Source of the DNA: Methanogenium sp.
Lineage (GTDB): Archaea > Halobacteriota > Methanomicrobia > Methanomicrobiales > Methanomicrobiaceae
Direction: 5' to 3'
DNA: 64,000 nucleotides
NCBI GenBank assembly: GCA_030595665.1
Contig: JAUVCV010000008.1
Location: 1 to 64,000, forward strand
The notes beneath the pieces are model-generated. The model saw nothing but the letters and a program-made list of their open reading frames with translations. It was not told where the DNA came from and searched no databases. Made by a program: the position numbers and the translations under genes. Positions 1-64,000 of the stretch are shown piece by piece (position 1 is the first letter of the stretch; each line of letters opens with the position of its first letter).

Positions 1-181
1 TGTTCCGGGCACCAATAAGATCAGCGTGAAGAGCAAATCCACAACATTCACAAACAAATGATTTCCTGTGTCTGTTGTTCTTGCTGATATGTTTACATCG
101 GGGGCATGTTTGTGACGTATAAGCCGGGTCGATGTAGACTGTTGTTATGCCCCTTTCTTTTGCTTTATACTTCCCTTTCGC
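1..181 (-). pseudogene. tnpB: TnpB (IS605 OrfB) C-terminal remnant, runs off window
   Basis: The minus strand reads a typical TnpB C-terminus: AYTSQTCPRCKH, a second Cys pair in FVCECCGF, then HADLIGARN with the final RuvC-type Asp. The four Cys form the usual TnpB zinc ribbon. The frame is closed on its N-terminal side by stop codons at 182-184 and 188-190, so only about 60 residues remain here and the RuvC core is missing. The extreme C-terminus lies beyond position 1. This is a decayed IS200/IS605-type gene rather than an active nuclease, unless an assembly edge hides a second part. Confidence 0.8.
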
Positions 182-817
182 TCATTTCTAATGGCAAATG
201 ATCAAATTGGACATTAAAACCCCCGGTTGTTGTTTATTTCATCATTAGGGCAACGTATGATGAATTCTGCCTGTGTCAGTAATTTGTGAGATTATAGATA
301 ACATTCCTGTTTTGCTTCACACATTGGAAAATATTAGATCTTTTTGGGGCAGATTGTGAGATATTTAAGGGCATTTGCTGTAATCTATGATTTATGATCT
401 CAGATCAGCGAAAGGGAAGACAGAGGAAGAGTGATCTAGAGATGATAATACGGATTTTTTTGACGATTAATAATAAGAAAAGAAAGTGCTCTGAATGGCA
501 GGGAGAAAGAAAAGAAGAATAAAAAATGAAATAAAATGAAAACGAAAAAAAAATTTGGAAATTTGGAAATTTGGAAATAAATTGAATATTGTGACTAAAT
601 ATTTTGTTAGAGAAAGGAATTTAGAGAGACCTTCAGTTCCTGTGGAATTTTTTAAAAAAGGGTCATTATTAAAGAACTATGCTGGAAATTTAAGCTGCAT
701 ACATTGAAATAATCATTATATCTCTTATATTCTGCTCAAAATATGATTTTTGAAAACATTTGTTTTTTATTTTTGTAACAGTTTTGATCCATATTCATTT
801 TTATATAACTAAATGTT

Positions 818-847
818 GGGGGAGACCCCTTAATTTCCACTGGAAAA
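818..847 (-). promoter_or_regulatory. Origin recognition box (ORB), minus orientation
   Basis: The minus strand reads TTCCAGTGGAA, AT, TAAGGGGTC, matching the archaeal ORB pattern (TTCCAGTGGAAAC.AA.GGGGT) with its diagnostic G-run. The dyad core is at 835-845 and the G-run at 826-829. It points away from the two plus-strand boxes at 1085 and 1224, so the boxes bracket the AT-rich stretch between them. Expected ligand: the Orc1/Cdc6 protein encoded at 2220. Confidence 0.87.
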
Positions 848-848
848 G

Positions 849-1084
849 AAAATTGGTGGTAGACCATTTTATCAAAATGTCAGACAAATTGAGACTTTTT
901 TTGGAAAAAAATCCTGTTTTTGCAGATCTGTACTTTTATGATCATTTTTGTTGCTCAACTACCTTTTCCAAACCTTGTTGTACATTATTGAAGTACTTTA
1001 TATATTATGAAAAAGAGATCACTAAATGGCTTTTCTTGTTGTAATTTTAAAAGCATGTCTGCTTTTCTCCCATACAAATTTTTC
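849..1084. other. Candidate duplex unwinding element between inverted ORBs
   Basis: A roughly 235-bp A+T-rich stretch bounded by oppositely oriented ORBs. Archaeal origins usually place the melting region between such boxes. The location and composition are seen; melting is inferred. Confidence 0.6.
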
Positions 1085-60554: not shown

Positions 60555-60825
60555 ACCGGATTTTTTGTGGTGGGATCTGAATAAAATCATAACCCGGGCT
60601 CCCACTACAGAACAGGACGTATGAAAATTCCCTGGTTCACATGGTCCGGTACAACAAAGAGCCGGTACATGACCAGTGAAAAATAACAATCCTCTGAAAA
60701 ACCTGTGGAATGACCGTGCTCGTGCCAGCTCTAATACCAGACAAGAGTAGTGCCCTTGTGGACAACACAAATTCTTGATGTTCCCAGGAGATATATTTAA
60801 TTGTTTTCAAAGAAACCTTCTCAGT

Positions 60826-61611
60826 ATGCGAATAAGGAATCGGGCATCCGTATGCATATCACTGGCACTGACGCTGTCATTTCTGTTGATATGCATGCCT
60901 TCCGCTGCCATTGTTGCGGAATTAACGAATGGAACGCTTTCTGAATCCCAGAATGAGGGGGAATCAATACAATACACAATAGAAGTGAGCGCAATCCCCA
61001 AGCAGACACAGATTATAGAGATAAATACTGATCTCATGCCGGTAGCGGGCACCAACCTCTGGCAGATAGACGGGAGCGGTTTTAATGTATCCGGGGGGGA
61101 CGAGGCATTAAACGACCATAAGATTGAGCTTACTGAAGTCGGCGAATTCCCGGACAAAATTACCGTCAGTGTATATGGCAGGATGCCTGTCCTTACATCG
61201 GTCGAGATTGTTGACGGTGTTGTCGTCACAAAAAAAATCACCCAGACAACGGGCTACGTCTACTACCACATCGAGGCACTCGATCAAAACCGGGATATTC
61301 TCGGAACGGGTACAACAGAGACATTTTCCGTCACCATTCCCGATGACGAGGAGTTCATGTCACGGCTGAACGCAGTTACTGATCCCGATATGAGAGTGCT
61401 TATTGACGACCTCTACTCCCGGGGACTCAGGGATGAGGCAGAAGACCTCTTACAATACGCAGAATCACCAAAAGATGCAAGTATCCCGGTTACAACGGCA
61501 GTTCTGATCGCCGTTGTGCTGCTTGTCGCAGGGTTTGCAGCCGGAATGATATTCGGCCAGATGAGAGCGAAGAACATGCAGGATTTCCATGATGAATACA
61601 AGGGGGACTAA
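60826..61611 (+). CDS. Signal-peptide protein with C-terminal transmembrane anchor
   Basis: 261 residues from ATG 60826 (longer in-frame ATG at 60775 is less signal-like). Signal peptide LALTLSFLLICMPSAAI (about 9-27), an extracytoplasmic beta-rich domain (30-205), one TM segment VTTAVLIAVVLLVAGFAAGM near 224-246 and a short polar tail (GQMRAKNMQDFHDEYKGD) in the cytoplasm. The next gene, a tubulin-superfamily GTPase, begins 6 bp after its stop, so the two are very probably cotranscribed. A membrane anchor or receptor for the GTPase filament is a reasonable inference. Confidence 0.82.
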   Translation: MRIRNRASVCISLALTLSFLLICMPSAAIVAELTNGTLSESQNEGESIQYTIEVSAIPKQTQIIEINTDLMPVAGTNLWQIDGSGFNVSGGDEALNDHKIELTEVGEFPDKITVSVYGRMPVLTSVEIVDGVVVTKKITQTTGYVYYHIEALDQNRDILGTGTTETFSVTIPDDEEFMSRLNAVTDPDMRVLIDDLYSRGLRDEAEDLLQYAESPKDASIPVTTAVLIAVVLLVAGFAAGMIFGQMRAKNMQDFHDEYKGD

Positions 61612-61616
61612 ACACA

Positions 61617-64000
61617 ATGGCTCATGACGATATTATCGAGGGAAAAGCCTTCCAGATGCCGGATGAACTGACCGTCGTTGCAATAGGCGGATGTGGAAAA
61701 AAACTCATAAACAACCTTTATGACCACGAATGGTTCTTAAAGCACTATCTTTCAGACGGAAAGCGACTCACTCTCTACACCATAGACACCGACTCAAACC
61801 AGAGAAAGGACGACATCAGACGGTCAGAAGAGGTTGAGGCAAAGGTCGGCGCGATTCAGAGGACAAACAGTCAGATGGGGGGGAGCGTAAAGAGCTATCA
61901 TTACCATCTCCCCGACCTTGCCAATGTCGAGCGGGTGTCATCCCTGACCTCAAAGGGGATTGCCGAACAGATCAAAAACCGGCGGGAACGCCCGCTTGTT
62001 GATGTATGGTGGATGAACGATCCCGAATACGGATTTGACTACCAGATGCTCAAACAGATCGACAAAAACATCGTCGACGACTTCGGCGGGGGGGTGCACC
62101 GCAGACGTGCCATATCCAAAGCGGTGTTCTACAAGGCAATCACCCAGGGCGGGGAACAATTCCCGTCGTTCCAGGGCCATGGGCCCGTTGCCATCGTTGT
62201 CGGTCTCGGAGGCGGTACCGGCTCCGGGATGTTTATTGATCTTGCGCGCTACATCAAGGAAAAACGTGGACAGGAGTCAAAAATATGGCTCTTTGTGGTG
62301 CTTCCGGCGGCGAGTGAGGGAGAGAAGGAACAGTTGAACGCGGCCATCGCCCTCTCGGAAATAGAATATCTCAACATGAAGGACGATAAGCTCTTCAACT
62401 ATATCATCGTCTCATCCCTGAGCCCCACCGGATATGTGGACGGAGGGGACCGGAAACAGGAGGTCATCGAGTTTGACTCCTCCTTCCCCTATATGTTCAT
62501 CAACTCCTTCTACCTCCCGACAGCTGACATATCCGCCATCGTCGATGCAAAAAAGGACTATTCCGGGTTTATCTTCGCGGATTCCCATGTGATTGAATAC
62601 CCTGTGGAAAACCTGCGGTCGCTGAAGAAGGGTTTTGAGGATGTCATCGAGAGTCTCTCGGGGATTTCACAGAACCGGGGGAGAATCCTAAAAGAGGTCA
62701 CGGACTTTATCGCGACCAATGAAACCCTCTACCCCGAGGAGTTTTCAAAGATGGATACCGAGATCACCCACGATGATGTCAACCTCTACCGGAAGGAGAT
62801 TGAAAAGGTAAAGAAAGTCTGGGAGAACGAGATTATCGATCTTTTGAACTTCAAGACGCAGTCCATTATCGAATCGGCAGTCACAAACAATATGCCCGAG
62901 GAACTCAGGGATATCACCCTGGTAAAGGATTTTGATAAGCTTACTGAGTATGTCACCCGGCTCAGGAGATCCCTTGAAAACGAGAGCAAACCGCATGAGA
63001 ATGCAAAGGATCAGGAGCTCTACGAAGTCATCAAAAAGAATCTCCAGCTCTTAGAGGAGATGTCAGACCTCCAGAAGAAGACACTCTCGGTGCACGGAAA
63101 ATCCGCACGGACTGCACTGGTTAATGTCATCCGTGGCGAGGAGAACTTTGGCAAGGTGTCGGGTATGCTCTCGTCCCGCCAGTCGGCATTGAAAGGTGAA
63201 ATCAGTGAGGCTGATGTCCGGGTCAAAAACAAGCGCTCAGAACTGGCCGATATTACCAAAGAGCAGGACCGGATGCTCAGCCTGGTCAAATCAGAGGTCA
63301 ATGCACTGGCACGGCCTGTCGATGATTATATTGCACTCGGCCACGGCACCGCCGCCGGTCAGGACTCCGTAGAAGTTCTCGAACAGGCATTTCTGGAGAA
63401 GTTCTCCACCCTGCTTATTGTTTTGCAGGAGAAACTGAACCAGTCCGAGAAAAAGAAGGCAAAGCCCATTAAACGTGCGGCATGGCTGGCATCACTTTCG
63501 CTCGGTGACCTTCAGGGGGATATCGAACAGCTGGAGCAGGCGACGTCGACCGACGTCTCCTATCTCAGGGACCTGGCAGAGTCAGTGTCCCTCTACATCT
63601 ACAACGACTACATGCTCAGGATCGCCAAGAAACAAGGCTTCTCTGACAGTCTGCTGGGACGGAAACTGAACCCTGAGATTTTCAGAAGCGAGAAGGCGAC
63701 AAAGGAGGAGAGGATCCGCAAGATATCCCAGATCCACCCGGGAAAGATCGCCATTCGCGACCCCTTCGAGGTCTTCATACAGGATAAGTTCCTGACCCGT
63801 GAGTTTGACACACGTCTTGGCTCTTTGCGGGAAGGGACCATCGCTCCTCTTCTCTCCCAGTTCAACCTTGAATCAGAGGAAAAGGCAGAGCTGATCCGGT
63901 CTTTTTCCGGAAGGAACACCGCATCGGTTCTCACGAGCATCCGGGAGACTCTGACGGGTATCGTAAACAGCCGTGAGGGCTACACCACAAAGATTGGAAA
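61617..64000 (+). CDS. Tubulin/FtsZ-superfamily GTPase with long coiled-coil-like extension (partial)
   Basis: At least 794 residues from ATG 61617, continuing past the window; AGGGGG lies 10 bp upstream. The N-terminus VVAIGGCGKK (residues 20-29) matches the superfamily T1 loop, YTIDTDSN (about 59) the T2/T3 region, and GGGTGSG (198-204) is the tubulin signature (T4 loop). A core of about 330 residues is followed by mostly charged helical sequence (for example SEADVRVKNKRSELADITKE), a coiled-coil-like extension absent from FtsZ and CetZ. It fits the FtsZ-like (FtsZl-type) families proposed to drive membrane remodelling. Not the cell-division FtsZ. Confidence 0.85.
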   Translation, partial: MAHDDIIEGKAFQMPDELTVVAIGGCGKKLINNLYDHEWFLKHYLSDGKRLTLYTIDTDSNQRKDDIRRSEEVEAKVGAIQRTNSQMGGSVKSYHYHLPDLANVERVSSLTSKGIAEQIKNRRERPLVDVWWMNDPEYGFDYQMLKQIDKNIVDDFGGGVHRRRAISKAVFYKAITQGGEQFPSFQGHGPVAIVVGLGGGTGSGMFIDLARYIKEKRGQESKIWLFVVLPAASEGEKEQLNAAIALSEIEYLNMKDDKLFNYIIVSSLSPTGYVDGGDRKQEVIEFDSSFPYMFINSFYLPTADISAIVDAKKDYSGFIFADSHVIEYPVENLRSLKKGFEDVIESLSGISQNRGRILKEVTDFIATNETLYPEEFSKMDTEITHDDVNLYRKEIEKVKKVWENEIIDLLNFKTQSIIESAVTNNMPEELRDITLVKDFDKLTEYVTRLRRSLENESKPHENAKDQELYEVIKKNLQLLEEMSDLQKKTLSVHGKSARTALVNVIRGEENFGKVSGMLSSRQSALKGEISEADVRVKNKRSELADITKEQDRMLSLVKSEVNALARPVDDYIALGHGTAAGQDSVEVLEQAFLEKFSTLLIVLQEKLNQSEKKKAKPIKRAAWLASLSLGDLQGDIEQLEQATSTDVSYLRDLAESVSLYIYNDYMLRIAKKQGFSDSLLGRKLNPEIFRSEKATKEERIRKISQIHPGKIAIRDPFEVFIQDKFLTREFDTRLGSLREGTIAPLLSQFNLESEEKAELIRSFSGRNTASVLTSIRETLTGIVNSREGYTTKIG

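Follow-up and report, generated by a model that had tools for sequence, protein, structure and literature searches.

A conserved membrane-partner gene beside an FtsZ-like 1 GTPase in a methanogen operon

At the end of a 64,000-nt stretch of archaeal DNA (the whole of which we call the window), a gene for a protein with a signal peptide and one transmembrane (TM) helix is followed directly by a gene for a long GTPase carrying the tubulin-type GGGTGSG loop. The GTPase is almost certainly an archaeal member of FtsZ-like family 1 (FtsZl1; Pfam Tubulin_2), and the two genes are inherited together in a range of Halobacteriota. Here they open a five-gene operon whose remaining products are all predicted to be membrane proteins. 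We describe this locus, compare it with known tubulin-superfamily systems, and consider what the operon may do.

Locus and gene layout

The window comprises the first 64,000 bases of contig C28, which runs to 68621 in a draft archaeal genome of 2.23 Mb. Judged by its named close relatives, the genome falls near Methanogenium. Both ORFs named in the original prediction, the signal-peptide/one-TM gene and the GGGTGSG GTPase, were found, with 5 bases between the partner stop and the tubulin start and with the expected loop in the second (Table 1). The window end cuts the tubulin ORF at about 73% of its length, leaving residues 1-794 inside. Three further genes with the same orientation follow on the contig, the first of which, for a 521-aa GTPase, overlaps the tubulin gene by 4 bases. 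The operon order is thus partner, FtsZl1 tubulin, six-TM GTPase, 476-aa TM protein and PEGA-repeat protein. A TATA-like AT-rich stretch, agatatatttaattgt, about 25-35 bases 5′ of the partner start codon, is a possible operon promoter.

Table 1. Coordinates of the operon genes and of the features within the first two. Base positions refer to the window unless a contig is named; residue positions refer to the protein concerned.
Feature	Position	Strand	Details
TATA-like AT-rich stretch	60790..60805	+	Putative; read by eye
Partner gene	60826..61611	+	261 aa from ATG; ORF
Partner: signal peptide, hydrophobic	Residues about 5-34		Hydropathy
Partner: outer beta-sandwich	Residues 30-170		AlphaFold model
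Partner: three membrane-proximal helices	Residues 172-213		AlphaFold model
Partner: TM helix	Residues 216-248		Hydropathy and model
Partner: cytoplasmic tail	C-terminus, about 15 residues		Hydropathy
FtsZ-like 1 (Tubulin_2) GTPase gene	61617..64000, continuing to C28 base 64871	+	1084 aa
FtsZl1: GTPase domain	Residues 17-327		Rossmann-type; AlphaFold model
FtsZl1: GTP-binding T4 loop GLGGGTGSG	62202..62228 (residues 196-204)	+	Putative, by sequence
FtsZl1: long helix	Residues 330-371		42 residues; AlphaFold model
FtsZl1: helical arm	Residues about 385-853		~470 residues; AlphaFold model
FtsZl1: C-terminal alpha/beta domain	Residues about 860-1082		AlphaFold model
Six-TM and P-loop GTPase gene (DO-GTPase2-like)	C28 64868-66433, outside window	Same direction	521 aa
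TM protein gene	C28 66455-67885, outside window	Same direction	476 aa
PEGA-repeat signal-peptide/TM protein gene, start	C28 67882-about 68220, outside window		Remainder at end of contig C43

On C28 the PEGA gene appears truncated. The last 403 bases of this contig (68219-68621; L003:12220-12622) are not colinear with relatives and carry a peptidase-like minus-strand frame, while contig C43 shares 79 identical bases with C28 and holds the remainder of the PEGA gene intact. Because C43 overlaps C28 and continues the gene, the C28 end is probably chimeric and the truncation most likely an assembly artefact; we therefore rejected a true truncation in this genome.

Full-length homologs of both proteins occur in many archaea at about 30-94% identity, which argues against a chance pattern of ORFs. 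Compared with two near relatives, dN/dS was 0.04-0.06 for the tubulin gene and 0.11-0.22 for the partner gene, and the range over the tubulin, GTPase and partner genes among near relatives was 0.04-0.22. The partner and tubulin genes are coding and under constraint.

The FtsZl1 GTPase

The window tubulin matched Pfam Tubulin_2 (PF13809) with an E-value of 7.6e-13 (48.9 bits, cut-off 27), scoring higher than with the classical Pfam Tubulin model (39 bits); all 21 aligned homologs matched both profiles. Tubulin_2 corresponds to the FtsZl1 family that Makarova & Koonin described in 2010, archaeal members included (Halorhabdus and others), and for which they proposed a role in membrane remodeling (PMC2875224). 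The suggested HMM comparison with FtsZl families, and the suggested link to an FtsZ-like family of this proposed function, thus led to a named family.

The traits given for FtsZl1 are a GGGTG(S/T)G motif in an N-terminal FtsZ-like fold, an extended coiled-coil and a mostly helical C-terminal globular domain, with the T6-H7-T7 elements not recognisable (PMC2875224). The present protein has the N-terminal FtsZ-like domain, GGGTGSG, the long arm and the C-terminal domain, its gene adjoins that of a membrane GTPase, and it has no conserved T7 acidic motif. It departs from the 2010 description in that its C-terminal domain is mixed alpha/beta in our model. The long coiled-coil-like arm of the original prediction appears in that model as helices between about residues 385 and 853; it does not set the protein apart, since such an arm is a defining FtsZl1 trait.

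The AlphaFold model, built from a 43-sequence alignment, has a mean pLDDT of 87.4. Its best solved matches by Foldseek were CetZ2 (E-value 6.6e-5), TubZ, OdinTubulin and FtsZ, and the modest TM-score of 0.50 against CetZ2 is expected because of the large insertions. No membrane segment was found in the protein itself.

Across the 43 homologs, the residues expected to line the nucleotide pocket vary little or not at all. G24, G27, K28 and D57 of T1-T2 are invariant (one sequence is gapped there), as are G159, R162, R164 and K168 of T3, G198-G202, G204 and M205 of T4, where GGGTGxG is kept throughout, and P230, E234, N241, E248 and E250 of T5/H5. GTP binding is therefore strongly implied by the sequence. 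At the H7 position the model places a strand and a 42-residue helix (318-371). A conserved acidic T7 residue or motif was not found among the 43 homologs, the best candidate being D387, which is D in 29/43. Since this residue is not conserved, the sequences do not support FtsZ-like assembly-coupled hydrolysis by a neighboring subunit.

The better Tubulin_2 match, the length of 1084 aa and the lack of a T7 motif rule out identity as FtsZ or CetZ, in agreement with the original prediction. CetZ and FtsZ follow a pattern of 350-450 aa with an N domain, H7, a T7 NxDxxD-like loop and an FtsZ/tubulin C-domain, which this protein does not share. CetZ2 of Haloferax (4b45) is the best solved-structure match of the GTPase domain, but CetZ proteins are about 350-400 aa and lack an arm or partner operon, whereas here both are present and T7 is not recognisable. 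Elsewhere in the genome there are four more genes of the tubulin superfamily, FtsZ-type and CetZ-like ones among them, so FtsZl1 is an additional protein. We also observed in this genome a CetZ-like paralog of 773 aa, encoded on the minus strand at and around G000:C11:24253-24741 (L176, L178). Its GGGTGSG loop has been lost, the sequence reading FAGLGGSVIDA instead, and it carries a long acidic linker and a tail of degenerate tandem repeats (about 18-20 residues, RPDDGALMGNKISVKSSGI-like).

Membrane companions and their conservation

The only hydrophobic segments of the partner are residues 5-34 and 216-248, which bears out the predicted signal-peptide/one-TM topology. In its AlphaFold model (mean pLDDT 83), 13 strands form a beta-sandwich, accompanied by three helices and the TM helix. 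Foldseek matched the model to cohesins and to p53-type and other beta-sandwiches, the TM-scores reaching about 0.5 at most. The description of the outer domain as Ig-like holds as a loose fold class and fails as a family assignment, with no convincing Pfam Ig family match and no fn3 family match either. Searches of solved-structure sequences with the partner and 476-aa protein profiles gave nothing useful. The most conserved partner residues, G200, L201 and E204, sit in the outer helices next to the membrane; the inner tail varies among homologs. Because the cytoplasmic tail is short and variable, the partner is unlikely to anchor the tubulin directly; we infer that it cooperates with TM segments or the other outer domains instead of serving as the hook. 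The arrangement resembles FtsZ with SepF in that a tubulin-superfamily protein has a membrane link, but SepF is a cytoplasmic membrane-binding anchor, whereas this partner is an outside-facing signal-peptide/TM protein.

All four companions of the tubulin have predicted membrane segments by hydropathy, three of them with outer domains. The 521-aa GTPase has six N-terminal hydrophobic segments, a P-loop (GPRSSGKT) and TKTD, with TKxD invariant. By hydropathy, the 476-aa protein consists of a cytoplasmic part of 327 residues, a single TM segment and an outer domain; it gave no convincing Pfam or solved-structure match. The last protein combines a signal peptide, PEGA repeats (14/14 homologs), a TM segment and a cytoplasmic tail domain.

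The FtsZl1 operons described in 2010 include the gene of a P-loop GTPase with Walker A and TxKD motifs, a membrane-associated protein in archaea, and in the majority of cases, though not all, a vWA gene (PMC2875224). When the original prediction was followed beyond position 64000, the GTPase and membrane proteins were found, so that the neighbors there are related to the system; the anticipated vWA gene was not, none being present on the contig past 64000. A vWA domain was absent from every operon protein (Pfam, window and contig beyond), and this operon likewise contains no protein kinase gene. Because its authors call vWA a majority and not a universal feature, its absence here does not exclude FtsZl1 membership. 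A bacterial FtsZl1 relative (L095) has a vWA gene upstream. An apparent further difference from FtsZl1 as described, whose associated families A1-A2 are unlabelled (PMC2875224), is that the beta-sandwich partner and the PEGA protein are constant components here.

We examined distribution in two sets, 60 near-relative genomes (including the window genome) and 394 genomes of the phylum Halobacteriota. Among the near relatives the partner is present in 26/60 genomes and the tubulin in 25 of those 26; the assembly of the remaining one is fragmented and contains just a piece of the partner. None of the 60 has the tubulin without the partner. Joint conservation of the pair had been set beforehand as a refuting test, and the prediction withstood it: at 39/39 strong partner loci (38 genomes of 394) the next gene downstream, on the same strand, is a Tubulin_2 gene. 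Tubulin_2 scores over the cut-off in 100 genomes, and these include all 38 with the partner (hypergeometric P 4e-26, indicative only, as shared ancestry is ignored). Methanosarcina acetivorans has a Tubulin_2 gene. The tubulin and partner distances correlate with r = 0.90; since common descent by itself yields such a correlation, we did not count it as a sign of interaction.

The order partner-tubulin-GTPase is common to Methanomicrobiales, Methanosarcina, Methanolobus and ANME-2, and the partner and tubulin are still adjacent in Syntrophoarchaeum and Geoglobus. Across loci the GTPase gene adjoins in nearly all cases, and 4-base overlaps between operon genes are frequent. A Methanofollis-type genus of a sister family has mostly the partner, tubulin and GTPase only. 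In Haloarchaea the tubulin occurs with membrane GTPase-like and related genes, and no partner was detected beside it. Distribution within the order is patchy, with whole families lacking the system, so it is dispensable.

Genes flanking the loci are mostly housekeeping (ATP synthase subunits, transporters, aminotransferases and signaling, among the 25 commonest Pfam families listed), and defense-model matches around the loci are scattered and low in count. With neighbors of this kind among those 25 families, a list that may miss rarer ones, we rejected a defense-island setting. Viral contigs held no relative, and we rejected a phage or viral origin.

Several other FtsZl1 loci came to our attention. 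A related genome (G049) encodes a second, diverged FtsZl1 (L049:16070-19357, plus strand; 29% identical to the window protein) directly after a PEGA gene, and a further copy on another contig. An acidobacterial locus (L116:2802-11705, plus strand) encodes two adjacent, very long proteins of 1554 and 1412 aa. Both open with a tubulin-like loop, GAGGTGVRVLR, and the second is FtsZl1-like. At a bacterial FtsZl1 locus (L117:10985-14317, plus strand), an HSP70-domain protein lies directly downstream, an echo of the HSP70 theme of DO-GTPase systems.

Proposed function and alternative explanations

From the family, gene order, co-inheritance, hydropathy topology, conserved GTP pocket and predicted folds established here, we propose that the operon encodes a GTP-controlled, envelope-spanning membrane scaffold that shapes or remodels the cell envelope, a reading to which we give about an even chance. 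FtsZl1 would bind GTP and assemble into a filament or patch under the membrane, through contacts not identical to those of FtsZ, given that the T7 catalytic motif is not recognisable. The six-TM DO-GTPase2-like GTPase would gate this assembly, and the single-TM proteins would couple it to the envelope outside. The partner would display its beta-sandwich outside the cell, the 476-aa protein would bring a large cytoplasmic domain, and the PEGA-repeat protein probably touches the S-layer or cell envelope. Such a complex could shape, stabilize or remodel the envelope, for example as curvature, vesicles or a surface structure. This is the 2010 proposal (PMC2875224) with a better-defined archaeal parts list. 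More tentatively, the archaeal operon might be a distinct vWA-less FtsZl1 subtype, an envelope-spanning machine with an obligate outside-facing beta-sandwich partner in which a tubulin lacking FtsZ-type T7 catalysis assembles via its helical arms under control of the membrane GTPase.

The strongest rival is that the operon is an archaeal branch of DO-GTPase-centered conflict (immunity) systems, in which the membrane GTPase would be a switch, the outer beta domains would sense an invader and the tubulin would be a multimerizing effector. Kaur et al. (2020) found tubulins fused to helical or coiled-coil domains in about half of GAP1-N2 DO-GTPase neighborhoods, along with TM-bearing GTPases and with PEGA or beta-sandwich domains; the gene that immediately follows the GTPase encodes GAP1 (PMC7159879). 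The present operon shares a TM-bearing GTPase that may be of the DO-GTPase2 type, the tubulin with a helical extension, the outer beta domains and PEGA, and its 476-aa TM protein occupies the position of the GAP1 gene. The DO-GTPase2 profile was matched by 18/20 homologs of the 521-aa GTPase at E-values below 0.1 (best 1.7e-5), the match of the window genome's own GTPase lying below the cut-off (0.035; 14.2 bits, cut-off 27); the Geoglobus GTPase matched at 5e-4. However, no operon protein has a Pfam GAP1 match, so we rejected a GAP1 identity for the 476-aa protein, and a search for GAP1-N2 proteins in nine bacterial FtsZl1 genomes obtained none. Unlike those systems, the operon yielded no FNIII family match, no zinc ribbon on the GTPase and no variable effector, its gene set being constant across the order with no swapped modules. 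The mainly housekeeping flanks and the lack of copies in viral contigs also speak against a role in conflict, which for the PMC7159879 systems is itself a prediction by its authors. We regard this reading as possible but improbable.

A little less probable still is a transport, secretion or sensing complex, in which the outer domains would bind a ligand or surface structure and the GTPases would relay this state inward without deforming the membrane. This alternative was argued by a reviewer of the 2010 paper (PMC2875224), and membrane segments predicted in four of the five proteins, with outer domains in three of them, would suit it. Against it, none of the operon proteins was assigned by Pfam to a family of transporters, channels or substrate-binding proteins, and the TM region of the 521-aa GTPase matched no transporter family at a convincing score. 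An accessory cell-division protein working with FtsZ is very improbable: FtsZl1 belongs to the same superfamily and FtsZ-type and CetZ-like genes are also in the genome, but FtsZl1 is missing from many relatives, some of them complete genomes within the same order, and the 2010 authors took the same view (PMC2875224).

We found no biochemistry or imaging experiment on any FtsZl1 member in the literature searched. The system is thus uncharacterized experimentally, as originally predicted, but it is not undiscovered, since comparative genomics described the family in 2010 with archaeal members. What the present analysis seems to add is the statistics on the obligate partner, models of the folds and the gene order in full. 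Within the tubulin superfamily, FtsZl1 is one of the most diverged branches, and it is widespread in bacteria and archaea. The operon described here has clear boundaries and an obligate membrane partner, and the fold models place the predicted arm between the GTPase domain and the C-terminal domain. Gene-deletion tools exist for Methanosarcina, a genus with species that carry homologs, so the membrane-remodeling prediction of 2010 and the conflict prediction of 2020 could be separated by deletion and imaging.
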